From Streptomyces spinoverrucosus (GTDB lineage: Bacteria; Actinomycetota; Actinomycetes; Streptomycetales; Streptomycetaceae), in the NCBI RefSeq assembly GCF_015712165.1, contig NZ_JADPZX010000001.1:6894001-6958000 (forward strand): a stretch of DNA of 64,000 nucleotides, read 5' to 3'. The notes below the pieces were generated by a model. It was given only the letters and a program-made list of their open reading frames with translations, searched no databases and had not been told where the DNA came from. Position numbers and translations under genes: made by a program. Numbering within the stretch: the first letter of the stretch is position 1; the number at the start of each line of letters is the position of its first letter. Positions 5,981-39,698 of the stretch are shown piece by piece.

Positions 5981-5984
5981 GGTG

Positions 5985-7103: not shown

Positions 7104-7137
7104 GGAAAATGCATCTCCTACGTGTCGTATATGAGCG

Positions 7138-9606: not shown

Positions 9607-10554
9607 GTGACGGCCGTTGAATCCCGTCCAGCGGGGATTATCGGGACGAGCCAGAGCCCGAGCCGGCGGCCGATCGGGGCCCGGGTCAAGGGGTTCGTGG
9701 CGCTGACCAAGCCGCGAATCATCGAGCTGCTGCTGATCACCACCGTGCCGGTGATGTTCCTCGCCGAGCAGGGCGTGCCCGACCTCGGCCTCGTGCTCGT
9801 CACCTGCCTCGCCGGGTACCTCTCGGCGGGCGGCGCCAACGCGCTCAACATGTACATCGACCGTGACATCGACGCGCTGATGGACCGCACCTCGCAGCGT
9901 CCCCTGGTCACGGGCATGGTCAGCCCGCGCGAGTGCCTCGCCTTCGGCATCACCCTGGCGATCGCCTCCACCCTGTTGTTCGGCCTCGCCGTCAACTGGC
10001 TGTCGGCCTGGCTCGCCCTCGGAGCGCTCCTCTTCTACGTCGTCGTCTACACGATGATCCTCAAGCGCCGCACCTCGCAGAACATCGTCTGGGGCGGCAT
10101 CGCGGGCTGTATGCCGGTGCTGATCGGCTGGACGGCCGTGACGAACTCGCTGTCCTGGGCGCCGCTCATCCTCTTCATGGTCATCTTCTTCTGGACGCCG
10201 CCGCACTACTGGCCGCTGTCCATGAAGGTGAAGGACGACTACGCGCGCGTCGGCGTGCCGATGCTGCCGGTCGTCGCGTCCAACAAGGTCGTCGCCAAGC
10301 AGATCGTGATCTACAGCTGGGTGATGGTCGCCGTCTCGCTGCTGCTGACCCCGCTCGGCTACACCGGCTGGTTCTACACCCTGGTCGCGCTGGTGGCCGG
10401 CGGCTGGTGGCTGTGGGAGGCGCACGCGCTGCAGAACCGGGCGAGGGCCGAGGTGACGGGCGTGAAGCTGAAGGAGATGCGGCTGTTCCACTGGTCGATC
10501 ACCTATGTGTCGCTGCTGTTCGTCGCCGTGGCCGTGGACCCCTTCCTGCGCTAG
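9607..10554 (+). CDS. ctaB: Protoheme IX farnesyltransferase (heme O synthase)
   Basis: This integral membrane prenyltransferase converts heme B to heme O, the first step to the heme A of cytochrome aa3 oxidase. The protein has the UbiA-type Asp-rich motif [15 protein letters not shown] and a second conserved stretch with [19 protein letters not shown], and about eight hydrophobic helices. GTG 9607 is chosen (315 residues) because AGGGG sits 5 bp before it; GTG 9601 or ATG 9586 would add 2 or 7 residues. The heme A synthase gene is 3 kb away on the other strand, which supports the role. Confidence 0.94.
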
Positions 10555-10587
10555 CCGTTTTGGCTACTCGTGGGTAGCATCCTGGCC

Positions 10588-10899
10588 ATGGGAGACACTC
10601 AGCAGGTGGACGAGCGCCGGGTGGCCCGGCTCGCCAAGCAGATCAACGCCTTCGCCAAGGCGCACGGAGGGGCCGAGGCCCAGGTCGCGTATCTCGGGCA
10701 GCGCGGCGCCCGGATCGTGCTGGTCGGTGAGGACGGCGGCTGGGGCGACCTGGTGGCTCCGACGTACGAGACCGCCCAGAAGGCCGTGGAGAAGTCCGGC
10801 CTCACGGCCCACGAGGCGTTCGACGGCGAGTTCGCGGCCAAGGTGAGGACCGGCCCGTACGAGTGGAAGCGGATGGCGGGCATCCAGATCGGCGGCTGA
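10588..10899 (+). CDS. Conserved hypothetical protein, 103 residues, probably leaderless
   Basis: A small soluble protein of unknown function. It starts MGDTQQVDERRVARLAKQI and carries a conserved-looking centre (RIVLVGEDGGWGDLVAPTYETA) and a GPYEWKRMAG end. I see no known domain. A TAGCAT hexamer ends 7 bp before the ATG and there is no Shine-Dalgarno sequence, which is the geometry of a leaderless Streptomyces transcript. It lies 33 bp after ctaB but its own -10 suggests separate transcription. Confidence 0.72.
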   Translation: MGDTQQVDERRVARLAKQINAFAKAHGGAEAQVAYLGQRGARIVLVGEDGGWGDLVAPTYETAQKAVEKSGLTAHEAFDGEFAAKVRTGPYEWKRMAGIQIGG

Positions 10900-24860: not shown

Positions 24861-25850
24861 ATGACCGACACGACTGCTCCTCGCACCACCGGCGCCGTGG
24901 CCGCCGGCCTTGCCACGATCGCCGCCGACGGCACTGTTCTCGACACCTGGTTCCCCGCGCCCGAGCTGGCCGCCGAGCCCGGACCTGCCGGTACCGAGCG
25001 CCTCGACGAGGCCCGCACCGCCGAGCTGCTCGGTGAGCACGGCGTCGCGGCGCTCGGCAAGGACGAGGTGCGCGGCGTGGAGGTCGTGGCGGTCCGGACG
25101 GTCATCTCCTCCGTCGAGGACAAGCCGCTCGACACCCACGACGCCTACCTGCGCCTGCACCTGCTCTCGCACCGCTTGGTCAAGCCGAACGAGCCGAACC
25201 TCGACGGCATCTTCGGCCTGCTCGCCAACGTCGCCTGGACCTCCCTCGGCCCGGTCGCCGTCGACACCCTGGAGACCGTACGACTCGCCGCCCGCGCCCG
25301 CGGCCTGCACCTGAGCGTCTTCGGCGTCGACAAGTTCCCGCGCATGACCGACTACGTGGCACCGGCCGGGGTCCGTATCGCCGACGCCGACCGAGTCCGC
25401 CTCGGCGCCCACCTCGCCGCCGGCACCACGGTCATGCACGAGGGCTTCGTCAACTTCAACGCGGGCACCCTCGGCACCTCGATGGTCGAGGGCCGTATCT
25501 CCCAGGGCGTCGTCGTCGGCGACGGTTCCGACATCGGCGGCGGTGCCTCCACCATGGGCACCCTGTCCGGCGGCGGCAAGCAGCGGGTCGCCATCGGCGA
25601 GCGCTCCCTCGTCGGCGCCGAGGCCGGTATCGGCATCGCGCTCGGTGACGACTGCGTGGTCGAGGCGGGCCTCTACCTCACCGCCGGCACCCGCGTCACC
25701 ATGCCCGACGGCCAGATCGTCAAGGCCCGCGAGCTGTCCGGCGCCTCCAACATCCTCTTCCGCCGCAACTCCGTCACCGGCACGGTTGAGGCCCGCCCGA
25801 ACAACGCGGAGTGGGGCGGGTTGAACGACGTACTGCACAGCCACAACTGA
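24861..25850 (+). CDS. dapD: 2,3,4,5-tetrahydropyridine-2,6-dicarboxylate N-succinyltransferase
   Basis: DapD adds succinyl-CoA to tetrahydrodipicolinate in the succinylase branch of diaminopimelate/lysine synthesis. The 329-residue protein has the actinobacterial DapD layout: an alpha/beta N-terminal half, then a left-handed beta-helix of hexapeptide repeats (about residues 170-300; [40 protein letters not shown]). The last four codons and the stop form the core of an attachment site: an integrated element begins here and the same 14 bp recur at 38043-38056. The insertion therefore restores rather than breaks the gene. Confidence 0.96.
25837..25850 (+). other. attL: attachment core in the 3' end of dapD
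   Basis: ACAGCCACAACTGA encodes the last residues and stop of dapD and is repeated exactly at 38043-38056, next to the integrase gene. The flanking bases on either side differ between the copies, which sets the core at 14 bp. TGACCTGC copies at 25864-25871 and 25895-25902 lie just inside and look like arm-type integrase sites; a third is at 38023-38030 on the other side. Confidence 0.82.
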
Positions 25851-26097
25851 TCATCGGCGGCCGTGACCTGCGGCCGTCTTATGGATCAACGTCCTGACCT
25901 GCTGTCGAGCTGTCGGCAGCTGTCGACGTTGGTCATCGTTGAGCGCCCTTCCACGGCCCGAGGACGGCCCGGGAGGGCGCTTTCGGCATGTCTCCGAAGC
26001 AGGCTTCCTCGGGTGCTCGGTAGGCGGGCAGCGCCCTTTTGTAAGAGGTTCATCCAAACCGCTGTCCCGGGTGGCGCTGGAAAACTACAGTGGGCGG

Positions 26098-27846
26098 GTG
26101 CTTAAGAAGCTTCGCCTGTCCCACTTCAAGGGCTTCGCTGAGTTCGAAATCAACTTCGGTCAGCAAGCAGTTCTCGTCGGCCCCAATAACGCCGGTAAGA
26201 GTACTATTATCTCTGCGCTTCGCCTTGCGGCTGAAGAAGTTTCGTTTGCGCGGCGCAGGAATAGCCGAGACCGGTTCAATCTAGATGGAAATAGATGGGC
26301 TTTCGGGCATCACCTGTCTAGCGGAATCGGAAACCCGTCTGGTTTCGTGGGCGAGAATATTCGACATGAATTCCGAGAATCGGAAACGCGACTTGAGTTG
26401 ACGTTCAGTTCTGGCGCTACTCTGAAATCTGTATGGCCGGTGGAGGAGTCTCCTTTTTTCTGTCTGGTTAATGATGACGGATCCATCGTGAGCGCAAGTG
26501 CCATTGCTCGATCTGTGACGCCGTCGATCGGGGTAGTTCCTACGCTGACCCCCGTTCAGCATCGGGAACTCGTCCTGACGGAGAGATACGTCAAAGAGAG
26601 CCAGACCACGCGCCTGTCGAGTAGCCACTTCAGGAATCAGCTATATTACCTCAAAAGGGAAGATGCTGATGCGTACTTCGATCTGACATCTTTCATCCTG
26701 GAAAATACACCAGAGATTCAGGACATTAGCATCGAGGCTAGCTCGGCCGGTGATGCGGCCGAACTCGACCTCTATTTCACCGAGACCGCCACAAGGTCAG
26801 TAAAGGAGCTCTTCTGGGCTGGCGATGGCCTTCAAATTTGGCTTCAGTTTCTACTTCACCTATTCCGTCATAGGGCCGCTAAGGCACTGGTTCTGGACGA
26901 GCCGGATGTATTCCTTCATCCAGATCTTCAGCGCAGACTAGTCAATGTCTTGGAAGAAAGAAGTCAGCAGTGGATCCTTGCCACTCATGCCCCTGAGATC
27001 CTGGCTGAAGCCCGTCGGGACTCGGTGATCCTTGTAGACAGGACCCGTAAGCGTGCTAGGCATCTCCGCGACTCAAAATCGCTGGAATACGCTAGTCAGT
27101 CCCTCGGGACGGGCTTCAATTTGGGCCTCGCACGTGCCCTGCGTTCCAAGGTCGCCCTCTTTGTTGAGGGGCAGGATATGAAAGTTCTGCGGAACGTGGC
27201 ACGCAAAGTGGGGGCAAGGAATCTCGCCGGAGAAAAGGGTGTTGCGGTTATTCCCCTCGGCGGCTTCGATAAGTGGGCACAAGCTGGCTCTTTCTCTACG
27301 CTTAGTGAGAGTTTGCTCGGCGACTCGGTGAAGGTGTACGTCATCCTGGATCGAGACAATCGAACGGAAGGCCAGGCGTTTGACGTAACTAGTGCATTGT
27401 CGCGGTCGGGGGTGCACTGTCACGTCTGGCAGAAGAAAGAGCTTGAGAGCTACTTTCTGATCCCAAGTGCTATTTCTCGGCTGTCAGGGGCCGACCAACC
27501 GATGGTTCAAGAGCTTCTGGATGAGGCTATTGAGGAGCAGAAAGTTGACGCTCAAGCGCAGTTTCTTTATCGTCGGCAAACGGATCTGGTGAGTGCAAGT
27601 TCGCACGCTATGGACGTTACGCGTGCCGCCATCCCTGAATTTGAGGTGTGGTGGAGCGACGAGGAAAGAAGAGCGGGGATGGTGCCTCCGAAGAAGGTTC
27701 TTTCTTCCCTAAATGGCAAATTGACCGCGAAGAAGTGCAAGCCTGTAAATGTGCGGGCGATCTCGAACAATATGAGGGCTGAGGAGATCGTTCCCGAATT
27801 GAGGGACATCCTTCTGGAGATTGAATCGGCTATCGCCGGATACTGA
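26098..27846 (+). CDS. OLD-family ATP-dependent endonuclease (AAA ATPase plus TOPRIM)
   Basis: A 582-residue protein (from GTG 26098; GTG 26071 would add nine). An SMC/RecF-like ATPase half has Walker A GPNNAGKST (residues 28-36), Walker B KALVLDEPD (262-270) and the H-loop ATHAPEIL (295-302). The C-terminal half is a TOPRIM nuclease with its glutamate in LFVEGQDMK (E357) and the DxD in VILDRDN (D418, D420). This is the domain order of OLD proteins, which cut DNA in phage interference. No UvrD-like helicase follows, so it is a stand-alone (class 1-like) member, not Gabija. Codon use is clearly less GC-biased than in neighbours, indicating transfer. It is the left-most cargo of the element. 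Confidence 0.87.
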   Translation: MLKKLRLSHFKGFAEFEINFGQQAVLVGPNNAGKSTIISALRLAAEEVSFARRRNSRDRFNLDGNRWAFGHHLSSGIGNPSGFVGENIRHEFRESETRLELTFSSGATLKSVWPVEESPFFCLVNDDGSIVSASAIARSVTPSIGVVPTLTPVQHRELVLTERYVKESQTTRLSSSHFRNQLYYLKREDADAYFDLTSFILENTPEIQDISIEASSAGDAAELDLYFTETATRSVKELFWAGDGLQIWLQFLLHLFRHRAAKALVLDEPDVFLHPDLQRRLVNVLEERSQQWILATHAPEILAEARRDSVILVDRTRKRARHLRDSKSLEYASQSLGTGFNLGLARALRSKVALFVEGQDMKVLRNVARKVGARNLAGEKGVAVIPLGGFDKWAQAGSFSTLSESLLGDSVKVYVILDRDNRTEGQAFDVTSALSRSGVHCHVWQKKELESYFLIPSAISRLSGADQPMVQELLDEAIEEQKVDAQAQFLYRRQTDLVSASSHAMDVTRAAIPEFEVWWSDEERRAGMVPPKKVLSSLNGKLTAKKCKPVNVRAISNNMRAEEIVPELRDILLEIESAIAGY

Positions 27847-27890
27847 ATCTTGAGAGCGTGCGTTACTGGAGACACTCGCCGACCTGATCT

Positions 27891-28835
27891 TCAAGCAGGA
27901 TCACCCACGCCGCTCTCCGCAACAGTCGTTTCAGTAGGCGTTCCGTTTGATTGACCTTCCTCGGCGTCCAGCGATGATGCCACGATTTGAGGCAATGAAG
28001 ACGACAGGATAGTTGATTCCAACTCTCCAGAGACCACAGCCTGGATCAGTACGTCATTCGCCTCGCGCGCCTTTTGCTGACCGCGCATAATAAGAAGCCA
28101 CGCGCAGGGAATGAGCAAGAATACGCTGGGGCTGCTATTAGCTGCGACGGCACTCACGAGGATGGACGAACTGAGGCCGACGTTCACTCTCAAGTCCGCC
28201 TCTGCTGTTGCGCGATCATATGTGCCGTAGAGATCTATATTTCTCGCCTGGAGTCGGATGGCCAATTGGTCGAGTTCGCCGCCGAACCTGCCCATTACTG
28301 AATGAAGATCCACCTTCCTTCCGCCGATATGTCGAATGTATACGGCTAGATCGATAAGGGCCGAGCGAGAGGCGCGACTGCCCCATTCGGGCCGCCGAAC
28401 GCCGGTCCAGGACTCCGCGAAGGCAAGTGGTGCACGTGGGTCTGCGGGGCCCCGAATGGTGGCCGGGGTCTCGGTCCATTGCAGAATTCGGGGATCGCTA
28501 AGTTGGCTCCCCGCTGACCTCTTCAGGATTTTTTGACGGAGGATCCACCACCACTCAGTAAATCTAAACCAGTGAACTATAGAGCGGGCGCGAATCTCAA
28601 GCAGGCTACCAATTAGATATGCCGCAAAGGAGACGGCGGCAAGTGTTGCCGCCGTGCCGGCTGTAGCGCTTAGCTGATATACGCTCTTCCATACTCCCTG
28701 TGCCTCGCCTCTCTTGGGGATGTGATCGGAAAATGTAATCCAGAGAGCAATCACCCAAATATAACCGGCCGCCAATGGGGCCCGGATTTCTCGAATTCCT
28801 GGGAGTAGATTTGCGAGCATGGCTTTATTCTGCAT
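27891..28835 (-). CDS. Membrane protein of unknown function, cargo next to the OLD nuclease
   Basis: I do not recognise this family. From ATG 28835 the protein has 314 residues; ATG 28820 or upstream ATG 28922 are also possible since no start has a clear ribosome-binding site. Two hydrophobic segments lie near the N-terminus (PLAAGYIWVIALWITF and ATLAAVSFAAYLIGSLLEI), a ~150-residue soluble middle with many Arg and Trp, then another hydrophobic pair around SSSILVSAVAANSSPSVFLLIPCAWLLIM and an acidic Ser-rich tail. It faces the OLD gene tail-to-tail with 44 bp between, and shares its low-GC codon use. The arrangement suggests co-inherited cargo, not a single operon. Confidence 0.72.
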   Translation of the reverse strand: MQNKAMLANLLPGIREIRAPLAAGYIWVIALWITFSDHIPKRGEAQGVWKSVYQLSATAGTAATLAAVSFAAYLIGSLLEIRARSIVHWFRFTEWWWILRQKILKRSAGSQLSDPRILQWTETPATIRGPADPRAPLAFAESWTGVRRPEWGSRASRSALIDLAVYIRHIGGRKVDLHSVMGRFGGELDQLAIRLQARNIDLYGTYDRATAEADLRVNVGLSSSILVSAVAANSSPSVFLLIPCAWLLIMRGQQKAREANDVLIQAVVSGELESTILSSSLPQIVASSLDAEEGQSNGTPTETTVAESGVGDPA

Positions 28836-29270
28836 CGGGGGCGCAGGGCACGTGGGTGGTTTCGAGTAATCGAGGTCGGTGGAGCGGCTTTGGGCTGGAG
28901 CTGCTTTGGGGCGAGTGATCATGGCCCCGTAAGCTTCCGGCGAGTCGGGCAGTCTGTGGACCTGCCCGGTAAAGCACGACGTTGGGGCCATGATCTTAGA
29001 GGCTCGCCCCAAAGTGGCTGCCTAAAGCCGTGGAGCCGACCGCCCCAGCCACACAGGGTGTCTCCCACTTCATGCCCGCAGCCGACGAGCGCGCCGCCGG
29101 GCGCGGCCAGCCGGGGCGCAGACAGGAGGCAGGCCGCGCCGCAGAGGCGGCGCGCGCCCGCGCCGTGCGCGGGCTCTTGATGGACGTAGGGAAATTCTCA
29201 CCGCGCCATGATCAGGAGCGGTCGGCGCCGGGGTGTTGGTGGCCTGGTCGTGTCGGCTACCGTGCGGTTC
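28836..29270. other. 435-bp intergenic region of the element, with a large inverted repeat
   Basis: The stretch between the membrane protein gene and the HD gene holds a nested inverted repeat at 28904-29014, described separately, followed by about 120 bp of very GC-rich sequence (29080-29180, ending GCGCGGGCTC). Short open frames are present but lack a ribosome-binding site and resemble nothing. The divergent genes on each side imply promoters here; none is clear. Confidence 0.5.
28904..29014. repeat. Nested inverted repeat (possible cruciform or structured RNA)
   Basis: Left arm CTTTGGGGCGAG + GATCATGGCCCC (28904-28928) pairs with GGGGCCATGATC (28984-28995) and CTCGCCCCAAAG (29003-29014): two perfect 12-bp stems separated by a 1-nt versus 7-nt internal loop. 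Inside the 55-nt loop, CGGGCAG...CTGCCCG forms a further 7-bp hairpin around 28954-28975. The whole folds into one long rod. Confidence 0.78.
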
Positions 29271-29831
29271 ATGCCCTCTGGACTGGACACGCCCCAAGGC
29301 GCGGCTGAACTGGCCGAGTCGCTTCTGCCTCCGCTCGGGAACCGCTGGCTGCACACTCAGGCCGTGGCGGCTCGTGCGCGCGAAGCATCGGCGGCTGTGT
29401 CCAAGGGAGACCGGGATCTTCTCGTCGCTGCCGCGTGGTTGCACGACATCGGGTATGCGCCGGAGCTGCGCGATACGGGGTTTCATCCACTCGACGGCGC
29501 GCGCTACCTGGAGACACTGAGGGCGCCTAATCGGCTCGTGCGGCTCGTCGCTCATCACTCTGGCGCCGTGTACGAAGCCGAACAGCGTGGGCTCACCGAT
29601 GAGTTGGCCGTGTACGAGCGGGAGGACTCTCCCGTTCTGGACGCCTTGATCTATGCCGACATGACGACCGGTCCGGCCGGGCAGTCCTTCGACTTCGATC
29701 AGCGCATTGACGAGATCCTGGAGCGGTACGAGCCGGGTAGCGAAGTGCACAACGCGATCAGCAAGGCGCGTCCGTACCTCGGGGCCGCCGTGGAACGGAC
29801 GCGCGCTCGCCTCGGTGATCAGCCGACGTAG
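29271..29831 (+). CDS. HD-domain hydrolase
   Basis: A 186-residue metal-dependent phosphohydrolase candidate. It has H28 (RWLHTQAVAARA), the HD pair at 58-59 (AAAWLHDIGYAPE), a second histidine pair in LVAHHSGAVYEA and an Asp in DALIYADMTTGP, the normal HD order. The substrate, probably a nucleotide, is not known. The gene overlaps the convergent Nudix gene by 13 bp. HD and Nudix genes often sit beside each other in AICEs. ATG 29271 is preferred because it gives a compact domain. Confidence 0.84.
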   Translation: MPSGLDTPQGAAELAESLLPPLGNRWLHTQAVAARAREASAAVSKGDRDLLVAAAWLHDIGYAPELRDTGFHPLDGARYLETLRAPNRLVRLVAHHSGAVYEAEQRGLTDELAVYEREDSPVLDALIYADMTTGPAGQSFDFDQRIDEILERYEPGSEVHNAISKARPYLGAAVERTRARLGDQPT

Positions 29832-30289
29832 GGCTCCTGCCGGTTCGCCAATCCGTGGTCGATCCGCATCCGCATCGACGGATGGATGTTCAGGCTGTCC
29901 AGCCGACTGGGGTGCACGAAGGCCACTTCCTTGCTCTCGCTGCTCGTGCGCAGCTCGCCGCCGACGATGCGTGCTCGGAAGCAGATCGAGAACTGCTGGC
30001 GTACCTCGCCGTCGTCGTACGCCATGACGTGAGCCGGGTTGGTGTAGAGGCCGACCAGTCCCGTCACCTCGACGTCGAAGCCGGTCTCTTCCTTCGTCTC
30101 ACGTACGGCGGCATCGGGTGCTGACTCGCCGACGTCGACCCCGCCGCCCGGCAGAGCCCAGAGGTTGTTGTCAGTCTTGTGGATCAGCAGGACTTCCCCG
30201 GCATCGTTCAGCGCGACCGCGGTCACGGAGGGGACGATGCTGTTCGCCTTCGGGGCGTTCGGATCGTTGAAGTAGTCGACTCGGGCCAT
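29819..30289 (-). CDS. Nudix hydrolase (possible Pif-type element immunity factor)
   Basis: A 156-residue protein with a perfect Nudix box at residues 49-71 (GGVDVGESAPDAAVRETKEE and following TGF), i.e. G-x5-E-x7-REUxEExGU. In pSAM2 the immunity factor Pif, which prevents redundant transfer into a cell that already carries the element, is a Nudix protein; the same role here is inference. It is transcribed toward the HD gene, with a 13-bp tail overlap. Confidence 0.86.
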   Translation of the reverse strand: MARVDYFNDPNAPKANSIVPSVTAVALNDAGEVLLIHKTDNNLWALPGGGVDVGESAPDAAVRETKEETGFDVEVTGLVGLYTNPAHVMAYDDGEVRQQFSICFRARIVGGELRTSSESKEVAFVHPSRLDSLNIHPSMRMRIDHGLANRQEPYVG

Positions 30290-30325
30290 GCCTCCAGCCT
30301 CGCATGCTCGGCTGTCGTACCGAGT

Positions 30326-30362
30326 CGGCCGGGGACCGGGTGCCGGTTCCGCCGGCGCCCGC
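30326..30362. repeat. 37-bp exact copy of a segment of the DUF2637/Spd gene
   Basis: These 37 bp, between the Nudix and XRE genes, are identical to 33871-33907 inside the membrane protein gene at 33501. The similarity extends in weaker form on the right. In the copy the frame is open but part of no gene, so it is a fragment left by recombination or a deleted gene. Confidence 0.8.
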
Positions 30363-30391
30363 AGCCCCGGCCCCCGAGGGCATCGGCTTGC

Positions 30392-31123
30392 CTACGCGAG
30401 GCGACCACGCTCCCAGGCGTAGTCGAAACTCCGCATGTAGTGCCGGAAGGTGCGGGCACCGGGGATGTACCGGAAGTGCAGCACTGGGTTCTGTCCGGCC
30501 GGTGCTCCGAGCACGTGCGGGTTCACTAACACGTCATCGTCGAAGCGATAAATCGAGTTGTAGAGGATCGTGTTGTGAAGCCGGACCTCGACGCCCGGCG
30601 TCGTCATCGCCGGTTCGAGGTAGCGCCGTGTTATCCGGGCGCGTGCGGCCAGGTCGTCGCCGATGCCTTCCTCCTCGCCGCGCTGGCGGACCATCTCCGA
30701 GTCCGGGTCGCCGAGGAGCACGCGTATCTGTGCTCCGGCCTTGGCCTTGTCGGCCAACTCGTACGGCAGATCCGGGTGGTTGTCGAAGAGGAACAGTCCC
30801 GCGTACACGAGGATGTCCACCTGGTCCTTCGCCTTCTCGATCAGCGATGACCACAGCGCGGCCGGTACCGCACCCCGGTGCGGGTAGTACGTGATCAGCT
30901 CGGACGTGCTGGCGGACTCGGCCTGCTTCTCGACGGTGGGCCACAGGTAGACCTCGTCAACTCCGAGGAAGTTCGCGGCCTTCCAGCGGTGCCCTCGGTG
31001 CGGCGTCCGGCCGGTGGTGATCCAGCGCTCCACGCTCTTCGGGTCGACGCCGACATGCTGGGCCACGGACTGGATGGTCTCGCCCTTCGCTGAAATCGCC
31101 GCGCGCAGACGCTCGTTCGCCAT
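30392..31123 (-). CDS. XRE-family transcriptional regulator with DUF5919-type C-terminal domain
   Basis: A 243-residue protein: an HTH of the XRE type at about residues 5-60 (ETIQSVAQHVGVDPKSVERW), then a ~170-residue domain that looks like the one paired with XRE HTHs in actinomycete mobile elements (ILVYAGLFLFDNHPDLPYEL, RVLLGDPDSEMV, RLHNTILYNSIYRFDDD). The protein is divergent from the transfer operon, and a symmetrical operator array stands in between, so it probably represses the element's transfer genes. The element has no GntR-type KorSA gene, so this may be its replacement. Confidence 0.83.
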   Translation of the reverse strand: MANERLRAAISAKGETIQSVAQHVGVDPKSVERWITTGRTPHRGHRWKAANFLGVDEVYLWPTVEKQAESASTSELITYYPHRGAVPAALWSSLIEKAKDQVDILVYAGLFLFDNHPDLPYELADKAKAGAQIRVLLGDPDSEMVRQRGEEEGIGDDLAARARITRRYLEPAMTTPGVEVRLHNTILYNSIYRFDDDVLVNPHVLGAPAGQNPVLHFRYIPGARTFRHYMRSFDYAWERGRLA

Positions 31124-31137
31124 GACTGCCCTCTCGT

Positions 31138-31187
31138 GGGACGTATCAGGGACGTTTTGACGATAACTCAGACGTCCCCAAACGTCC
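31138..31187. promoter_or_regulatory. Symmetrical operator array in the divergent XRE/transfer promoter region
   Basis: GGGACGT (31138-31144) and GGGACGT (31149-31155) are followed by their inverse, ACGTCCC (31172-31178) and ACGTCC (31182-31187). The array is a near-perfect palindrome centred on about 31163, with a TTGACG (31157-31162) in the middle that could be a -35 element for the plus strand. It is the likely site of the XRE regulator. Confidence 0.7.
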
Positions 31188-31284
31188 ATACGGGCCGTGA
31201 TGTGTCCACCACTCCTCGCGGTCTCCTGATCTCACCGGCGATTCCGGTCGGTTCCAAATCCACTCCAGATCAGGAGAACAGACG

Positions 31285-31644
31285 ATGCGTCAGATTCCTG
31301 TCGACACCTCCACCGCCACCGTGATGGTTGCTCAGACCCCGGAGCCCAAGGTCCGCGACCGCCGTACCGGCGAGATCGCCACCGACACCGAGACCGGCGC
31401 GAAGCTGATGACGGTGAACGTGATGTTCGCCCTCAACGGCGACGTCGAGATCCTGAACGTCACCGTGCCGGAGACCGGCGTCTCCGAGGACCTGGCGATG
31501 GGGACGCCGGTCGCCCTGACGGGCCTGATCGCCCGGCCGTGGGAGAACGAGTTCAACGGCCAGAAGCGGCACGGGATCGCGTTCCGTGCCGTGGCCGTCA
31601 CCTCGCTCGCTGAGGCTGGCGCGGCGAAGTCGAAGGCGGCCTGA
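31285..31644 (+). CDS. AICE conserved protein, 119 residues, possible OB-fold
   Basis: First gene of the transfer operon, behind AGGAGA. The protein is mostly beta-strand by its pattern (EILNVTVPETG, TPVALTGLIARPW, HGIAFRAVAVTSL), like a small OB-fold, and close relatives stand at this place in many Streptomyces elements. Function is not known; single-strand DNA binding would fit but is inference. It is 3 bp before the traB-like gene. Confidence 0.75.
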   Translation: MRQIPVDTSTATVMVAQTPEPKVRDRRTGEIATDTETGAKLMTVNVMFALNGDVEILNVTVPETGVSEDLAMGTPVALTGLIARPWENEFNGQKRHGIAFRAVAVTSLAEAGAAKSKAA

Positions 31645-31647
31645 GCC

Positions 31648-33003
31648 ATGACGTGGCTGATCGTCGCCCTGGTGCTGGTTGTCGCCGCTGCGGGTCTCCT
31701 GCGGTGGCGGCGCCCCGCCTGGTACTGGCTGGCCTTCGGTGTCACCTGGGCTTCGCTGCGGGTCCTGGTCCGCTACCCCTCCGTGATGGACGCCTGCGGG
31801 CTGACTGTTCCGGCCTCCCGCTGGCGGCTGACGCTGGCCCGGATGGCCAACCGGCCCGTTCCCGGTCCTCATGCTCCGCGCATCCTGCGCGTGCGGCCGA
31901 CCCGTACCGGCCTGGTCCTCCGGCTGAAGCTTCGGCCCGGTCAGGACGCCTTCGACGTGGCGGCCTCGTGTGACCGGCTGCGGCACTCGTTCGCCATGTA
32001 CGGCGTCACCTCCCGTGAACTCCGCTCCGGTGTCGTCGAGGTGCGGATGACCGGCTACGACGTGCTCAAGCGCGTGCAGATGCCCGCCCAGCTCGACACC
32101 CGCCCGATGCGGGTCCCGGTCGCCCTGCGCGAGGACGGCAGCGTGCACTACCGCGACTACCGGGCCGTGCCTCATGCGCTCACGCTCGGCGCCACGGAGT
32201 CGGGCAAGTCCGTCTACCAGCGCAACCTCGTGGCAGGGCTCGCTTCGCAGCACGTGGCCCTGGTCGGGATCGACTGCAAGCAGGGGGTGGAGCTGTTCCC
32301 GCTGGCTCGCCGGTTCTCCGCGCTCGCCGACAACCCCGACACCGCCGCCGAACTCCTCGACGCACTGGTGGCGCACATGGAGGACGTCTACCAGCTCATC
32401 CGCGCCGAGCAGCGGATCACCACCGACGTGCCGGATGCGGAGATCGCCGCCGACATCTGGGACCTGCCCGAAGACCTGCGGCCGATACCGGTCGTGGTCC
32501 TGGTCGATGAGGTCGCCGAACTCGCCCTGTTCGCCAGCAAGGAGGAGGAGAAGCGGCGGGACCGGATCATCACCGCGCTGGCCCGGCTGGCTCAGCTCGG
32601 CCGTGCCGCCGGGATCTACCTGGAGATCTGCGGGCAGCGCTTCGGCTCCGAACTCGGCAAGGGCATCACCATGCTCCGCGCCCAGCTCACCGGCCGGACC
32701 GCGCACCGCGTCAACGACGAATCCAGCGCGAACATGGCCTTCGGCGACATCGCCCCGGACGCCGTGCTGGCTGCGATCCAGATCCCCACCGACATGCCCG
32801 GCGTCGCCATCACGGGTGACTCCACCGGCGGTTGGGCCCGCATCCGCGCCCCGCACACCTCGCTGCGGCAGGCCGTGAACATCTGCAACCTGCACGCCGA
32901 CCTGACCCCGGACCTGCCCGCCCTGGCGCCCTTCCGGCCCGCCCTCGACGGCCCTGCGCCGACTCCTGACTCGGCCGTCGAGTCCATCCCTGCCACCACG
33001 TGA
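31648..33003 (+). CDS. Conjugative DNA translocase of the FtsK/SpoIIIE type (TraB/TraSA)
   Basis: A 451-residue hexameric motor that moves double-stranded element DNA from mycelium to mycelium, the single essential transfer protein of Streptomyces plasmids. It has two N-terminal hydrophobic segments (about 3-45), Walker A GATESGKS (181-188) and Walker B VVVLVDEVAEL (about 281-291), followed by the FtsK-type LAQLGRAAGIYL and arginine-rich sensor part. The C-terminal ~40 residues are Pro/Ala-rich. It is coupled closely with the flanking genes. Confidence 0.92.
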   Translation: MTWLIVALVLVVAAAGLLRWRRPAWYWLAFGVTWASLRVLVRYPSVMDACGLTVPASRWRLTLARMANRPVPGPHAPRILRVRPTRTGLVLRLKLRPGQDAFDVAASCDRLRHSFAMYGVTSRELRSGVVEVRMTGYDVLKRVQMPAQLDTRPMRVPVALREDGSVHYRDYRAVPHALTLGATESGKSVYQRNLVAGLASQHVALVGIDCKQGVELFPLARRFSALADNPDTAAELLDALVAHMEDVYQLIRAEQRITTDVPDAEIAADIWDLPEDLRPIPVVVLVDEVAELALFASKEEEKRRDRIITALARLAQLGRAAGIYLEICGQRFGSELGKGITMLRAQLTGRTAHRVNDESSANMAFGDIAPDAVLAAIQIPTDMPGVAITGDSTGGWARIRAPHTSLRQAVNICNLHADLTPDLPALAPFRPALDGPAPTPDSAVESIPATT

Positions 33004-33021
33004 TCCCAGGAAGGACCCCCG

Positions 33022-33504
33022 ATGTTCTGCGAGTACTGCGGCGATGTCGACGGCGAGGAAACCGGCGTCGACCACGACGAACGGGACTGCCCCTGGTACG
33101 GCACCGAGGACGGCGCCGTGACGATCGACGCCGACCAGCTGGCCGACACCCTGAGGGCCACGGCGGACGGCGTCCCCGCCCTGCGGGCCGCGATCGGCCT
33201 CCTGATCGGCCACGGCCCGTGGGTCAAGCGCCTGGCCGAGCGGCCCGGACTGTTGCTTATCGACTACTCCGGCCCCACCCCCGAGCCGTACGGCGTCGAC
33301 TGGGTCAAGGTCGTTGAGGCCCTGGACGCCAAGGAGTTGCCCGCCTCCGGTGGGGAGCTGCGCATCCTCGGCCTCGCCGCCTCCCTGGCCCACCCCGCCG
33401 CCCGGGTTCCGCTCGGGGACGCGGTCAGCGGCTTGGACGCGGCCAACCTCGACCTGGTCCTGACGGCCATCGCCGAAGCCAACGGCCGCCCGAGGGTGCG
33501 GTGA
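33022..33504 (+). CDS. AICE hypothetical protein with N-terminal zinc-knuckle-like motif
   Basis: A 160-residue protein starting MFCEYCGDVDGEE, with Cys3, Cys6 and a later DHDERDCPWYG that could hold one metal ion. The rest is acidic and helical, with no known domain. It stands between traB and the Spd-like gene and overlaps the latter by 4 bp (GTGA). AGGA precedes the ATG. Confidence 0.7.
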   Translation: MFCEYCGDVDGEETGVDHDERDCPWYGTEDGAVTIDADQLADTLRATADGVPALRAAIGLLIGHGPWVKRLAERPGLLLIDYSGPTPEPYGVDWVKVVEALDAKELPASGGELRILGLAASLAHPAARVPLGDAVSGLDAANLDLVLTAIAEANGRPRVR

Positions 33505-34181
33505 TGGCCATGCCGTCCCGACTGCGCCTTGACGCCGTCCTCGTCCAAGCGGTCATCGCCGGGGCCCTGTCCTTCGCCCACCTGCACGACCTGGCAGCTG
33601 CTGCCGGACAGTCCGGCTGGAAGGCCTGGGCTTACCCCGTCTCCGTCGACCTCCTCTTGGTCGCCGTCTGGCGCAGGCTGCGCACCGATGGCCCGTCCCG
33701 GCTGGCCTGGTGCTGGTTCCTCATCGCACTCGTGGCTTCGCTCGGCGCCAACGTCGCGACCGCCGGACTCCTCGACCTCGACCACGTCCCGGCCTGGCTG
33801 CGCATCCTCGTCGCCGGATGGCCCGCGCTGGCCTTCCTCGGCGGCACCCTCCTGGCCCACTCGCCGACTCCGGCCGGGGACCGGGTGCCGGTTCCGCCGG
33901 CGCCCGCTGCCGCGGCCCCCGAACCCGACCACGACACCGACCCTGCGCCTGTCGTGGAGCCGGAGACCGCCCCGGCCTTGCCCGCCGCCGACCCGACCCC
34001 GACTCCGACTCCGGCGCCCGCTCCGGCCGTGCCCGTCCCGGCCGCCCTCGTCGACCACGCCCGCAAGGTCGCCGCCGACCACGAAGCCCGCACCGGCACC
34101 CGGATCGACACCGACACCCTGCGCGCCCGCCTCAACGTTCCCGCCCCCATGGCGGACGCCATCGCCGCCCAACTCGCCTGA
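33501..34181 (+). CDS. DUF2637-type spread (Spd-like) membrane protein
   Basis: A 226-residue protein with four hydrophobic helices in its first ~120 residues (IAGALSFAHLHDLAAAAGQSG, YPVSVDLLLVAVW, WCWFLIALVASLGANVATAGL in pieces, LVAGWPALAFLGGTLL), a Pro/Ala/Thr linker of about 60 residues and a C-terminal helix pair resembling the DNA-contacting HTH of Spd/Rep-associated proteins (DHARKVAADHEARTG). Such proteins help element spread within the recipient mycelium. GTG 33501 or ATG 33504 may be the start. A 37-bp piece of this gene recurs at 30326. Confidence 0.8.
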   Translation: MMAMPSRLRLDAVLVQAVIAGALSFAHLHDLAAAAGQSGWKAWAYPVSVDLLLVAVWRRLRTDGPSRLAWCWFLIALVASLGANVATAGLLDLDHVPAWLRILVAGWPALAFLGGTLLAHSPTPAGDRVPVPPAPAAAAPEPDHDTDPAPVVEPETAPALPAADPTPTPTPAPAPAVPVPAALVDHARKVAADHEARTGTRIDTDTLRARLNVPAPMADAIAAQLA

Positions 34182-34200
34182 CAGACAAGGAGACCAGCTC

Positions 34201-34392
34201 ATGCCCGCCCGTGACTTCTTCCACTCCGTGATGCGGATCGGCCCGGTGCAGATCGGCACCCGCCGCGACCGGCGCGGCCAGACCAAGCACGCCGCCGTGT
34301 GCACCTCCGACGGCTGCGGCTGGTCCGCCGACTACACCAGTCAGTCCGCCGCCCAGCTCGCCGCCCGCACCCACCGCTGCAAGGTCCGCTGA
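34201..34392 (+). CDS. Small mobile-element transfer protein
   Basis: A 63-residue basic protein, MPARDFFHSVMRIGPVQIGT and so on, with a C-terminal metal-site pattern C-x4-C-x16-H-x-C (CTSDGCGW...THRC). The sequence type is common in AICEs as a so-called mobile element transfer protein. AAGGAGA lies upstream of the ATG. Confidence 0.82.
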   Translation: MPARDFFHSVMRIGPVQIGTRRDRRGQTKHAAVCTSDGCGWSADYTSQSAAQLAARTHRCKVR

Positions 34393-34406
34393 GGGAGGCC
34401 ACCGCC

Positions 34407-34562
34407 ATGGAAGTACCGCTCTGGCTCGCCCTGATCGTCGTCGGCTGGCTCGGCGTCAAGCTCATCCGCCCGCCCGCCTGGCTCATCGCCGTCCTGCTGC
34501 TCGGCGGCTTCCTCCTTGCCGACAGCGTCCTTGCTCCCGCCATCAACGCCTTCGTCAAGTAA
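34407..34562 (+). CDS. 51-residue membrane protein of the spread operon
   Basis: Two hydrophobic helices (LWLALIVVGWLGVKLI and WLIAVLLLGGFLLADSVL) with almost no loop. It lies 14 bp after the previous gene, behind GAGGGAGG. Small membrane proteins of this kind occur in spd operons; the exact role is unknown. Confidence 0.78.
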   Translation: MEVPLWLALIVVGWLGVKLIRPPAWLIAVLLLGGFLLADSVLAPAINAFVK

Positions 34563-34586
34563 CCAGCCACAGAAGGGAGTTATCCC

Positions 34587-34904
34587 ATGCTGCGTCCGAA
34601 GATTCCCACCATGCCGACTCCGACCGGCCACGTGACCCCGCCCGCGGTCGTCGAGCCGACCACCGTTGTACCGGCGGCCCACATTCCGCCGCCTGTCCCG
34701 GCGGCTCCGGCGCCGTCCCGGCCCGTCGTCCAGCTCACGCCCGGCACCGTGCTCGCCCTCGTCGGCGGCGGCACCGCCGTGGTGCTGGTCGTCGGCGCCG
34801 TCCTGGTCTCCATGCTCCTGGCGGTTGCCATAACCGGCGTCTCGGTCGCCGTGTGCGCCGTCGTCCTTCGCTCCCTGCTCGCATCCGAGACGAAGCGACG
34901 CTGA
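34587..34904 (+). CDS. SpdD-like spread protein
   Basis: A 105-residue protein with a Pro-rich N-terminal half ([20 protein letters not shown]) and a strongly hydrophobic C-terminal half (LALVGGGTAVVLVVGAVLVS and the next helix), ending in a basic SETKRR. This two-part layout is typical of SpdD proteins of pSAM2-type elements. GAAGGGAG is the ribosome-binding site. Confidence 0.82.
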   Translation: MLRPKIPTMPTPTGHVTPPAVVEPTTVVPAAHIPPPVPAAPAPSRPVVQLTPGTVLALVGGGTAVVLVVGAVLVSMLLAVAITGVSVAVCAVVLRSLLASETKRR

Positions 34905-34993
34905 CCGGCCCCCGGGCGGCTTCGATACCGCCAAGCATCCGCCGCCCGGGCGCCGTCCCTGTCCGATTCAAGAAACCGGAAGGAATCTCCATC

Positions 34994-35191
34994 ATGACCG
35001 GCCCCACCCCGGCTACCACCACACCCGCGCGGATCTGCCAGAACTGCGACGGCTTCGCCACCGCCGCCGTATCCTCCGGTCCGCGCGACCCTCACGGTCA
35101 CCTGCACACGCTGACCGTCGACTGCCCGGCCTGCCACGGCACCGGCACCGTTCCCGCCCCCGTCGCCCAGCTCGCCGGGGGCCGCGCATGA
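34994..35191 (+). CDS. Small zinc-ribbon protein before RepSA
   Basis: A 65-residue protein with two CxxC pairs, CQNCDG and CPACHGTG, the second like a DnaJ zinc-finger half. It overlaps repSA by 4 bp (ATGA) and is preceded by GGAAGGA. The function is unknown; its coupling to the initiator suggests a role in replication. Confidence 0.8.
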   Translation: MTGPTPATTTPARICQNCDGFATAAVSSGPRDPHGHLHTLTVDCPACHGTGTVPAPVAQLAGGRA

Positions 35192-36573
35192 CCAACCCCG
35201 CGACCTTCGCGGGCCTGGACCCGACCACCCTGGGGGACCTCCTCCGGGTGGCCGGGTCTCCGGGCTTCGACCGCTGGCAAGACCAGATCCGCCGCACCGG
35301 CGGCTGCGCCGACCCCATCCACCTGCGCGGTTGGGTCGTCCACAAGGACAAGACCACCGGCGAGACCCTGCACCACTACTCCACCGAGCACGAGCCGGGC
35401 GGCCGACTCCGCGTCGCCTGCGGTAACCGCCGCGCCTCCCGCTGCCCGGCCTGCGCCTGGATGTACGCGGGCGACACGTACCGACTCATTCGCGCAGGGC
35501 TCGCCGGGGACGAGGACAAGGACGTCCCCGTTACCATCCGCGACCACCCCCGAGTCTTCGCGACCCTCACGGCACCCTCATTCGGCCCGGTCCACAACCG
35601 GCCCGACCATGGCGTCTGCCGCTGCGGCACCCGCCACACGCCGGAAGATCCCACCCTCGGTACTGCCCTCGACCCGGCGACGTACGACTACGCGGGCGCC
35701 GTGCTCTTCAACAACTACGCAGGGGAGATGTGGGCTCGCTTCGTCAACCGGCTCCGCCGGGAGATCGCCAAACGCGCCGGACTGACACAGCGCGAACTCG
35801 CCGACACCTGCCGTGTCTCCTACGGCAAGGTCGCCGAGTTCCAGAAGCGGGGCGCCGTCCACTTCCACGCCGTGATCCGGCTCGACGGCACCGACGGGCC
35901 TGACTCGACGCCCCCATCCTGGGCCAGCACGAGCCTGCTCACGGATGCGATCCGGGCTGCCGCGCGACACGGCTACACGACCGTCAACGTCCCCGCCGCT
36001 GGCGAGCAACCCGCCCGCGCCCTGAAGTGGGGCCGACAGCTCGACGTCCGCCCCGTGCGGGCCTTCGGCGACGGCTCCGAGCTGACCGAACAGGCCGTCG
36101 CCTCGTACGTGGCCAAGTACGCCACCAAGGCGGCTGAGAACACCGGCACCCTAGACCGGCGCATCGGCGAACTCGCCGAACTCGACCGCCACGGCGTCCC
36201 CGACCACGCCCGTCGCCTGATCACCGCATGCCGCGACCTGGACGCGCTGTACCCGGACCGCCGTCTGTGGGCCTGGGCTCACATGCTCGGTTTCCGGGGC
36301 CACTTCTCCTCGAAGTCTCGCCGGTACTCCACCACCCTCGGCGCTCTCCGCCAAGCGCGCGCCGACTACCGCGCCGCCCAGGAACGCGAAGCCCTCGGCC
36401 TGGACGACACCGAGCCGGACACCGTACTGGTCCTGGCCGACTGGCAGTACGCCGGACACGGCCACACCCCCGGCGAATCCGCGCTGGCCGCCACGATCGC
36501 CCGTGACCTACAGCTCAACCGCCAAGCCGCCCGCGAAGCGCTTGCCGCGCTGCCAGACGAGAGGGAGTGGTGA
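35188..36573 (+). CDS. repSA: Rolling-circle replication initiator RepSA
   Basis: A 461-residue initiator of the pSAM2 RepSA type, needed to replicate the excised element. It has an N-terminal Cys-rich part (CGNRRASRCPAC, CRCGTRH), the HUH nuclease motif HFHAVIRL (H225 and H227), and the later KYATKAAENTG region that in this family holds the catalytic tyrosine (Y at about 310-312). A RNA-binding-like HFSSKSRRYS segment follows. The stop overlaps or abuts the xis start. Confidence 0.92.
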   Translation: MTNPATFAGLDPTTLGDLLRVAGSPGFDRWQDQIRRTGGCADPIHLRGWVVHKDKTTGETLHHYSTEHEPGGRLRVACGNRRASRCPACAWMYAGDTYRLIRAGLAGDEDKDVPVTIRDHPRVFATLTAPSFGPVHNRPDHGVCRCGTRHTPEDPTLGTALDPATYDYAGAVLFNNYAGEMWARFVNRLRREIAKRAGLTQRELADTCRVSYGKVAEFQKRGAVHFHAVIRLDGTDGPDSTPPSWASTSLLTDAIRAAARHGYTTVNVPAAGEQPARALKWGRQLDVRPVRAFGDGSELTEQAVASYVAKYATKAAENTGTLDRRIGELAELDRHGVPDHARRLITACRDLDALYPDRRLWAWAHMLGFRGHFSSKSRRYSTTLGALRQARADYRAAQEREALGLDDTEPDTVLVLADWQYAGHGHTPGESALAATIARDLQLNRQAAREALAALPDEREW

Positions 36574-36575
36574 CC

Positions 36576-36776
36576 ATGCCGATCAGACTGCCTGACCGCT
36601 ACCTCACGCCCGAAGACCTCGTCGAAATCTTCGAACTGCCCAGCGTCCAAACGCTCTACCAATGGCGGCGGAAGCGCATCGGCCCTCAAGGATTCCGGGT
36701 GGGCCGGTACATCCGATACGACCCCGAGCACGTGCGGGCATGGGTCAAGTCCCAGATGGAAGGGGCTGCCGCCTGA
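36576..36776 (+). CDS. xis: Excisionase (Xis), MerR-like HTH
   Basis: A 66-residue DNA-binding protein with a winged HTH of the HTH_17 type (YLTPEDLVEIF...LYQWRRKRIGPQGFRVGRYIR). Xis directs the integrase to excision. ATG 36576 is chosen because GGAG lies 8 bp before it; GTG 36570, which overlaps the repSA stop, is possible. Its stop overlaps the int start by one base (TGATG). Confidence 0.9.
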   Translation: MPIRLPDRYLTPEDLVEIFELPSVQTLYQWRRKRIGPQGFRVGRYIRYDPEHVRAWVKSQMEGAAA

Positions 36777-38017
36777 TGGCCGGACACATTCAAGATCGGT
36801 GGTACAAGACCGTTCCCGGCCAGGACGGCAAGACCGGCAGGGTCAAGACCGACCGTTACGGTGTCGGCCAGCGCTACCGCGCCCGGTACATCGCGCCGGA
36901 CGGCTCCGAGAAGTCCAAGAGCTTCCCGGACAAGCAGAAGCGCAGGGCCGAAGCCTGGCTGTCCAACATCGAGGCGGACATGTCGCGGGGGCGGTACATC
37001 GATCCGGCCGCGGGCTCGGTGACTTTCGGGGAGTACGCCAAGGAATGGATGGCGGCACTCACGATCGACCCGGTGACCCGTGAGAGTGTCGAGATCCGCC
37101 TACGGGTCCATGCCCTTCCGTACCTCGGTGATCGGCCCATGGCATCCTTCCGGCCCTCACACCTGCGCACGTGGATGCGACAGCTGGAGGCAACGGGGCG
37201 TGCCGCGTCCTACCGGCGGTCGATCTTCGCCAACGTGTCCGCCGTGTTCACGGCCGCCGTGGAGGACCGGATTATCGCCGAGAACCCGTGCCGGGCACGT
37301 TCCGTGCGCGCACCGTCCCCCGACGCCCGCAGGGTCAAGCCGTGGTCCGTGGAACGCGTCATGGCCGTGCACGAAGCGCTGCCGGACGCCTACCAGGAGA
37401 TGGTCAGCGTGGGGGCGGGCTGCGGCCTTCGGCAAGGCGAGATCTTCGGCCTTGCCGTTGACGATGTCGACTTCCTCGGCGGCACGGTTCATGTGGTGCG
37501 CCAGGTCAAGCTCATCCAGGGCAAGCACGCGGTATTCGGACCGCCCAAGGGCGGCAAGGAACGTGATGTGCCGCTGCCGGAGACGGTGTCGTTCGCGCTG
37601 GCGGCTCACATCACGCGGCACGAGCCCGTAGAAATCACCCTGCCCTGGAAGACCTTGGAGGGCCCGCCCGTCACGGCCGCACTGCTCTTCGTCAACCCGA
37701 GGAACCGTGCACTGCACCGGGCGCGCTTCAACGAGCGGTTCTGGCAACCGGCGCTCACCTCCGCCGGCATACCCCTCGGACGCGAGAACGGCATGCACGC
37801 GCTGCGCCACTTCTACGCGTCGGTCCTCTTGGACGCGGGGGAGAGCATCAAGGCCCTGAGCGAGTACCTCGGCCACCACGACCCCAGCTTCACTCTCCGC
37901 ACATACACGCACCTGATGCCCAACAGCGAGGCGCGCACCCGTGCCGCCGTCGATCAGGTCTTCCGGGACCCGGAGAACGCCCAGGACGGCCCCGAGACGG
38001 CCCCTGGCACGAACTGA
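36776..38017 (+). CDS. int: Tyrosine-recombinase integrase
   Basis: A 413-residue site-specific recombinase. An N-terminal arm-binding region (about 30-70) is followed by a SAM-like core-binding domain (about 80-170) and the catalytic domain, with R219 (GLRQGEIFGL), H341-x2-R344 (HALRHFY), H367 or H368 (YLGHHDPS) and nucleophile Y377 (TYTHLMP). The full R-H-R-H-Y set is present, so it should be active. The gene ends 26 bp before the attachment core. Confidence 0.95.
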   Translation: MAGHIQDRWYKTVPGQDGKTGRVKTDRYGVGQRYRARYIAPDGSEKSKSFPDKQKRRAEAWLSNIEADMSRGRYIDPAAGSVTFGEYAKEWMAALTIDPVTRESVEIRLRVHALPYLGDRPMASFRPSHLRTWMRQLEATGRAASYRRSIFANVSAVFTAAVEDRIIAENPCRARSVRAPSPDARRVKPWSVERVMAVHEALPDAYQEMVSVGAGCGLRQGEIFGLAVDDVDFLGGTVHVVRQVKLIQGKHAVFGPPKGGKERDVPLPETVSFALAAHITRHEPVEITLPWKTLEGPPVTAALLFVNPRNRALHRARFNERFWQPALTSAGIPLGRENGMHALRHFYASVLLDAGESIKALSEYLGHHDPSFTLRTYTHLMPNSEARTRAAVDQVFRDPENAQDGPETAPGTN

Positions 38018-38042
38018 GTCCCTGACCTGCGTCCCATACAGA

Positions 38043-38056
38043 ACAGCCACAACTGA
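38043..38056 (+). other. attR: second copy of the attachment core
   Basis: ACAGCCACAACTGA, identical to the end of dapD at 25837-25850. The bases to its right (CGTCGCTGCTGC) should be the original sequence downstream of dapD. A TGACCTGC arm-like motif stands at 38023-38030 on the element side. Confidence 0.82.
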
Positions 38057-38547: not shown

Positions 38548-39525
38548 TCACGCGGGCAGTCGCTCTTCCGCCGTCCGCTCCTCGTCCGCCGCCCGCTCCT
38601 CGTACGTAGTCGGCTCCTCGTACGTAGCCAGCTCCTCGTACGTCGCCAGCAGACCGCCCGTCGTCTCGCGGCTCGCAGGGCGTAGAGGTGGGCGGACCGG
38701 GCCCGACGGGAGGCCCAGCGCGGCCAGCAGTGCCTTGGCGGTGACCGTGCCGGGGAGGTCGGCCGACATCATCGCCTCGATGAGCGGCACCGCCTGCTGC
38801 TGGCGACGGGCCGCGCCGGCCGTGTCGCCCGCGTCGAAGTCGTCGAACACGGAACGGACGTGATGGGGGATCACGTTCGCGACCGTGCTGACGCAGCCCG
38901 CCGCGCCCACCGCGTACAGGGCGAGATTGTGCTCGTCGCAGCCCGCGTAGTACGCCAGGTCCGTGCGGGACAGGACCTTCTGGGTGCCGAGGAAGTCGTA
39001 CGAGCAGTCCTTGACGGCCACGATGCGGGGGTGCTCGGCGAGCCGGATCAGTGTTTCCGGCTCGATGCGGGTGCCGGTGCGGGCCGGGATGTCGTACAGC
39101 ATCAGGGGCAGGGCGGACGCGTCCGCCACCTCGCGGAAATGTGCTTCCACGGCGTCCTGAGGGGGCCGGCTGTAGTACGGGGTGACGACCAGGGCGCCGT
39201 CCGCGCCCGCCTGCCCGGCCTGCACGGTGAGCTCGATCGTGTGGCGGGTGTCGGAGGTGCCGACGCCCGTGACGACGGACGCGCGGTCCCCGACCGCCTC
39301 CCGGACCGCCCGGACGAGCGCCGCCTTCTCGGTGTCGGACGTGGTCGGCGACTCGCCCGTGGTGCCGTTGAGCACCAGCCCGTCGCAGCCCCGCGACACC
39401 AGCCGGTCCGCGAGCAGCTGCGCGCCGTCGAGGTCGAGCGAGCCCGCGTCGGTGAGGGGCGTGATCATCGCGCAGAGGGTGCGGCCGAAGGGCGGGGCGG
39501 GCGAGGAGGCGTTGGTCAGGGTCAT
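38548..39525 (-). CDS. dapA: 4-hydroxy-tetrahydrodipicolinate synthase (DapA family)
   Basis: DapA condenses pyruvate with aspartate semialdehyde, the first step of the diaminopimelate branch. The 325-residue protein has GTTGES (54-59), Y144 (LMLYDIPARTG) and the Schiff-base lysine K172 (VAVKDCS), all expected for DapA. The last ~40 residues (from about 286) are an acidic repeat with TYEEL, TYEEP and TYEER units, outside the enzyme fold. The other DapA-like gene at 61634 belongs to another subfamily. ATG 39525 follows from alignment with the usual family start. Confidence 0.88.
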   Translation of the reverse strand: MTLTNASSPAPPFGRTLCAMITPLTDAGSLDLDGAQLLADRLVSRGCDGLVLNGTTGESPTTSDTEKAALVRAVREAVGDRASVVTGVGTSDTRHTIELTVQAGQAGADGALVVTPYYSRPPQDAVEAHFREVADASALPLMLYDIPARTGTRIEPETLIRLAEHPRIVAVKDCSYDFLGTQKVLSRTDLAYYAGCDEHNLALYAVGAAGCVSTVANVIPHHVRSVFDDFDAGDTAGAARRQQQAVPLIEAMMSADLPGTVTAKALLAALGLPSGPVRPPLRPASRETTGGLLATYEELATYEEPTTYEERAADEERTAEERLPA

Positions 39526-39698
39526 GGGAGTAGTGTCGGCACGGCGATCGTGTAGTTCCACTTAAATCTTCTAAGGGGTATGTGTAAGCGTTGCTGTGTC
39601 GGGGCGGGCGTCGTGGCGGGTGGCCCTATGTCCAACGCCGCCTTTCATGGGTCACCATGGCCGGGACGGTCCACCACCACCCGGTCCTGGGAGGCGTC

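Follow-up and report, generated by a model that had tools for sequence, protein, structure and literature searches.

The dapD locus and the genes between the cores

The window analysed here is a stretch of 64,000 nucleotides from Streptomyces spinoverrucosus. It contains dapD, the gene for tetrahydrodipicolinate N-succinyltransferase, at 24861–25850 (+), and in a profile search the product of this host gene scored 500.6 bits against TIGR03535 (DapD_actino; cut-off 441.5). The final codons and stop of dapD, ACAGCCACAACTGA (25837–25850, +), are found again as an exact copy at 38043–38056 (+), as a preliminary description of this DNA had claimed, and these are the only matches to the 14-mer in the window at up to two mismatches. 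We designate the two copies the attL and attR cores, and the 3′ end of dapD attB. From core to core, the circular element would measure 12,206 bp. The second copy had been placed 26 bp after the integrase gene; it does follow that gene, but 25 bp separate the int stop (38017) from the core. Through the 14 identical bp, the dapD reading frame (..LHSHN*) stays intact, and the protein is unchanged because the element itself supplies these final codons with the stop, which agrees with the restoration of the gene supposed in the preliminary description. Just past attR, and convergent with dapD, is a gene with a family match to DHDPS (dapA-like; 38548–39561, −), the right chromosomal flank; the element thus sits between two genes of diaminopimelate-pathway families.

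Two cargo genes lie on the attL side. The first, which adjoins attL, codes for an AAA ATPase of the OLD/GajA/PtuA/AriA kind (26098–27846, +; the start codon is uncertain, and the ORF opens at 25939), and the second for a protein without a family match (27891–28835, −; ORF up to 29012). When the ATPase was searched for among 261 loci, it was found in its own genome only; related elements have other genes in the same slot, and the equivalent slot of a remnant (L160) holds a NACHT protein. Family matches then identify an HD-domain protein (29208–29831, +), a Nudix hydrolase (29819–30289, −), a SCO3933-family regulatory protein (31285–31644, +) and a DUF2637 spread-like protein (33501–34181, +), downstream of which small ORFs extend to 35191; a helix-turn-helix regulator-like protein (30392–31123, −) gave weak family matches only.

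The genes for transfer, replication and recombination that had been expected between the cores (traB-like, spd-like, repSA, xis and int) are all confirmed by family matches. The TraB-like transfer protein (31648–33003, +) is of the FtsK/SpoIIIE type (PF01580, E = 4e-47). The rolling-circle replication initiator RepSA (35188–36573, +) scored 871 bits against NF041486 (cut-off 700) and is one of the replication initiators that mark an AICE, the others being RepAM and Prim-pol. It is followed by a xis-like HTH_17 protein (36576–36776, +) and a tyrosine integrase (Phage_integrase; 36776–38017, +) containing HALRH, GHH and TYTH, which we take to be its catalytic motifs. The locus has the other marks of an AICE as well, namely, an integrase, att sites as direct repeats at both ends, and an FtsK/SpoIIIE-type transfer protein in place of a type IV secretion system. 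No secretion-system component was found among the scanned proteins, a set that takes in part of the small ORFs, and the FtsK protein itself gave weak type VII EccC matches below the cut-off.

The left attachment arm (25851–25983, +) is a conserved module with TGACCTGC at 25864–25871 and 25895–25902, and it is 89–94% conserved in three other genomes (G009, G020 and G200). The right arm (38018–38042, +) has CTGACCTGC at 38022–38030, and TGACCTGC is found again in right arms. Within the left arm is a terminator-like hairpin (25941–25982, +; −32 kcal/mol, z = −3.3 as RNA) that a T-run scan did not call. Located just inside attL, it may terminate the dapD transcript. In G020 (L144, 16213–16280), a sequence resembling this hairpin is seen after the attR core, so the terminator native to dapD may look the same.

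Judging from these features, the integrase would bind the arm sites through the TGACCTGC motif on both sides, with strand exchange within the core, probably in the CCACAA that the inverted CAG and CTG enclose. Integration would be reversed by Int together with Xis, and the excised circle would replicate by means of RepSA and move by means of TraB.

Empty and occupied dapD sites

Taken by itself, the 14-mer repeat would be modest evidence for the ends of an element. In shuffled sequence, the mean number of matches to ACAGCCACAACTGA at up to two mismatches was 0.25. The weight is carried by the empty sites and the independently occupied sites, beyond the repeat itself.

The dapD protein was searched for in 246 Streptomyces genomes and was present in 241; of these, the top 30 loci were examined (L114–L143, of which L114 is the window's own). 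The alignment to the right flank starts at core base 1 in L117, L128, L132 and L143, and at bases 23–77 in L119, L129, L130, L131 and L139; the remaining loci of the 30 have intervening sequence, an occupied site or no match. L117, whose dapD protein is 95.7% identical to that of the window, reads from dapD through a single core directly into the right-flank homologue (82% identity over 374 bp from core base 1), and L167, 19.9 kb from that side of the same genome, has one core. The preliminary description had predicted that empty sites would pass straight from the core into the sequence from 38057 onwards. This is what the relatives named above show; not every related site is clean, since in other genomes decayed relatives of the element, short or broken, lie between dapD and the flank (G161, G172, G221, G380, G022 and G350).

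A search of the 246 genomes with the integrase gave matches of at least 84% identity in five, the window's own included; the other four (G017, G020, G009 and G200) are 84–88% identical. In all five, the 14-mer lies within about 40 bp downstream of int, and it was absent after int in all other loci examined, where the integrases are at most 74% identical. The 14-mer also follows int in L034 (Streptomyces glaucescens NRRL B-2706), with an integrase 87% identical, and the L034 and G017 matches begin at the same base. In G020, G009 and G200, dapD is 8–10 kb from int, at the far end of the element, with cores at both ends, 9.7–11.1 kb apart, and the gene order is that of the window: HD, Nudix, regulator, tra, spd, rep, xis and int. 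The attL-side cargo varies, with DUF6414 in G020, a weak PIN match only in G200 and a sub-threshold DUF3303 match in G009. G017 is split across contigs, with dapD and the left arm on one and int and a core on another.

We conclude with high confidence that the locus is an AICE of the RepSA/TraB type, 12,206 bp long, which its own tyrosine integrase inserted at the 3′ end of dapD. Directly observed are the two cores of 14 bp and the set of genes, along with the empty sites and the matching arrangement in other species. Could the element be a decayed, immobile remnant that is still flanked by att sites but has lost its mobility? The short or broken versions at dapD in the six genomes named above are in line with such a fate. 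However, the frames of int, xis, repSA and traB are open over their full length here, the integrase motifs are present, and the cores and arms are intact, so we consider this improbable. That the 14-mers are a chance repeat, with the true ends elsewhere, can be set aside: two matches at up to two mismatches did arise in 3 of 100 shuffles (at least two being counted), and the genome has a third exact copy at C1:4662718 (−), distant from dapD, but the junctions of the empty sites fall exactly on the core, which rules it out, and the same core pair surrounds related elements in other species.

Beyond dapD in L159 (G139, 5062–10806) are two left modules in the same direction; the second is 72% similar, and the pair points to tandem elements. 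The window's own genome has a second related AICE (L154; G000:C1:5688736-5689989) with an integrase 64% identical, and its 16-bp repeat, ACACCCCATCTTGCCG, indicates a target other than dapD. When free circular forms were sought, the best match was 58% identical among plasmids and 30% among phages.

The gene kinds RepSA, TraB-like FtsK, spd, xis and int are those of pSAM2-type AICEs. Whereas pSAM2 uses a tRNA-gene site (PMC3218068, in the part available), the target here is dapD with a 14-bp core; ARAGORN found no tRNA gene in the window, and the insertion is not of the pSAM2 type at a tRNA 3′ end, as had been stated. The 13.6-kb AICE pACPL of Actinoplanes sp. SE50/110 has reg, nud and mdp genes in addition to tra and spd, similar to the genes for the regulator, Nudix and HD proteins of the present element, but its target is a tRNA-Pro gene with a 43-nt identity segment (PMC3364876, accessible portion).

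How unusual is a protein-gene target? The preliminary description had contrasted the dapD site with the tRNA 3′ ends used by most AICEs. The general preference holds, since tyrosine-integrase AICEs are described as vastly located at tRNA 3′ ends, with the whole pSLS subfamily as the exception (PMC3218068, same part); the contrast has to be softened because protein-gene targets are a known minority (PMC3218068; PMC9513070). The sites counted in the available text of PMC9513070 are 36 in tRNA genes, 14 in protein-coding genes and 1 intergenic (14/51 in protein genes), and 43.4% of genomic islands lie within protein-coding sequence according to the part of PMC12424338 at hand. Like the present element, AICE03 (rlmN) and AICE06 (a glycosyltransferase gene) use protein genes and carry direct repeats that are short (11 nt in the rlmN case), and the same Streptomyces population study describes decayed AICE copies, as seen here at dapD (PMC9513070, available text). 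Their targets differ from dapD, in a comparison limited to that text; the supplementary tables of PMC9513070 could include dapD. The integrase subfamily of pSLS also has a non-tRNA target, as does the present element, but the likeness is one of description, the target genes being unnamed in the accessible text of PMC3218068. AICEs at protein genes are, then, an already-known kind. The dapD site appears to be unreported in the literature searched, which excluded most subscription papers and supplements. Among the papers that match dapD with an integration term, PMC13304404 and PMC4349145 concern other subjects, as far as their available text goes.

With a defined and conserved site, a small native integrase and an intact gene product, the system may be of use for gene insertion in laboratory Streptomyces. 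The host of pSLS, named above, is Streptomyces laurentii.

The left module outside dapD

The first 147 bp at attL, comprising the core, the arm with two TGACCTGC and the hairpin, were matched in whole or in part in 122 of 392 genomes. Thirty of these loci were read, one per genome and best first of the 122; 12 are at dapD, and 18 are elsewhere, with a different sequence before the core. Nineteen regions were followed over longer stretches, and 18 of them contain the module. Flanking repeats were sought in six elements with an integrase match; they were found in L233, L237, L239, L241 and G254, and none was found in L235. In these five elements, the module lies 1.1–4.4 kb inward of the left repeat; their integrases are 23–61% identical to that of the window. 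The repeats are at tRNA-Arg in L237 and tRNA-Gly in L239, and consist of a 57-bp sequence resembling a tRNA end in G254 and of 14 bp in L241; that of L233 is at a ACACCCCATC site. The occurrence of the same module in AICEs with other integrases shows that it is not exclusive to dapD integration. The comparison of L241 with the window is of particular relevance: HD, Nudix, regulator, TraB and RepSA are 82–88% identical, whereas xis and int are only 59–61% identical.

A C[AT]G trinucleotide is found at −4 to −2 in 18 of 20 distinct left flanks of the module (background 0.046), and this form is present also in dapD (CTGCACAG) and attR (CAGAACAG). In a module tree of 37 rows (6 of 43 were dropped as decayed or repeated), dapD and non-dapD copies are intermixed, with 13 changes, and a single clade was rejected (p = 9e-6); the tree has one well-supported inner branch, and its bootstrap had not settled.

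Nested insertion behind the non-dapD modules was considered and rejected. A second core at up to two mismatches was sought in 23 non-dapD stretches (7–34 kb), and the scattered two-mismatch matches occur at about the shuffled rate; at up to one mismatch, 21 of the stretches have a single core and 2 have none. Several cassettes with folded attC-like sites, as in an integron, were also not found in the 23. Nor is the module likely to be a structured RNA, as no Rfam family scored above gathering and covariation is almost nil.

We favour the explanation that integrase exchange left the dapD attachment half behind inside AICEs. We tentatively go further and suggest that the dapD module may be an exchange point, at which AICEs swap integrase and site round one backbone while keeping an internal core and left arm, and that the integrase family may be a protein-gene-end specialist shifting from gene to gene, one clade each. 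What if the 147 bp serve AICEs in general, for example, as a single-strand origin, instead of forming an integrase arm, and match dapD over their first 14 bp by chance? AICEs with other integrases contain the module as a single internal copy, the tree mixes dapD copies with those from elsewhere, and as single-stranded DNA the module has a strong fold (z = −5.1). However, a compensatory change was seen in only 1 of 44 predicted base pairs, TGACCTGC recurs in the right arms, and elements of a sister clade with the CAP target have a 72–79% similar arm near their own attL. We regard a general locus as rather unlikely. The TGACCTGC sites are probably bound by the integrase. The recurrence of the dapD module in tRNA-site AICEs makes AICE site switching directly testable.

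The 14-mer of the dapD core also recurs in imperfect CACAGCCACAACTGAA-like repeat arrays (L001, L181, L184, L186, L199 and L202). In L001, one exact copy (1501–1514, −) is located among degenerate ones, near two genes that by eye resemble those for a GntR-type regulator and a small membrane protein.

The integrase family and its targets

We scanned 111 related integrase loci (57–100% identity, some loci being counted twice) with ARAGORN, covering 600 bp past int and all available sequence upstream of it, with flanks of about 1.5 kb per side for some loci and up to 10 kb for the rest. A tRNA was found at none of the 111 within these flanks, although far ends beyond them could hold one; in two loci used as positive controls, the tRNA-Arg and tRNA-Gly genes were recovered.

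A quick tree was made from 103 different integrases, after repeated loci and those of less than 380 residues were dropped. Its labels are short C-terminal motifs of the neighbour gene, or the core after int, rather than att repeats for each row; 26 of the 111 loci and 25 of the 103 rows are unlabelled. The 11 target labels require 10 changes, which is the minimum, compared with a mean of 52.8 for shuffled labels, and none of 200 shuffles reached as few. Eight of the 10 multi-row groups each form a single clade, the exceptions being NusG (2 changes) and the CdsA motif (3 changes). Thus, within this family, integrase sequence correlates with site, unlike in the set of PMC9513070, for which its available text reports no correlation.

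The neighbour genes, identified for one locus per group, are those for CAP/YkwD, glutamine synthetase (two kinds), HisN, NusG, MurA, CdsA and phosphoglyceromutase. Repeats of the gene end support the CAP target (13–15 bp; none found in L149 or L152), the glutamine-synthetase-like target (63–87 bp) and HisN (13–15 bp in L158, L065 and L260; none in L157 or L261). Support is weaker for NusG, with 12 bp in L254, which is about chance level, and 14 bp in L255, and it is weak for MurA, with just a 12-bp repeat 18.7 kb away. For GlnA (HEFELYFD), a gene-end repeat is absent in L252 and L253. CdsA is not supported as the target of the PVVWLL group, as the 27-bp repeat of L257 is off the cdsA end and the group requires three changes on the tree.

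As read from these neighbourhoods, most clades of the family are each located next to the 3′ end of a given protein gene, and the family seems to use protein-gene ends in place of tRNA genes. Clades beside different gene ends offer a natural series for studying target change by a tyrosine integrase, and we find this habit of the family, together with the travelling module, more interesting than the dapD site itself. The position of int differs among the elements: it adjoins the target gene in the CAP elements and is at the far end in the dapD elements.
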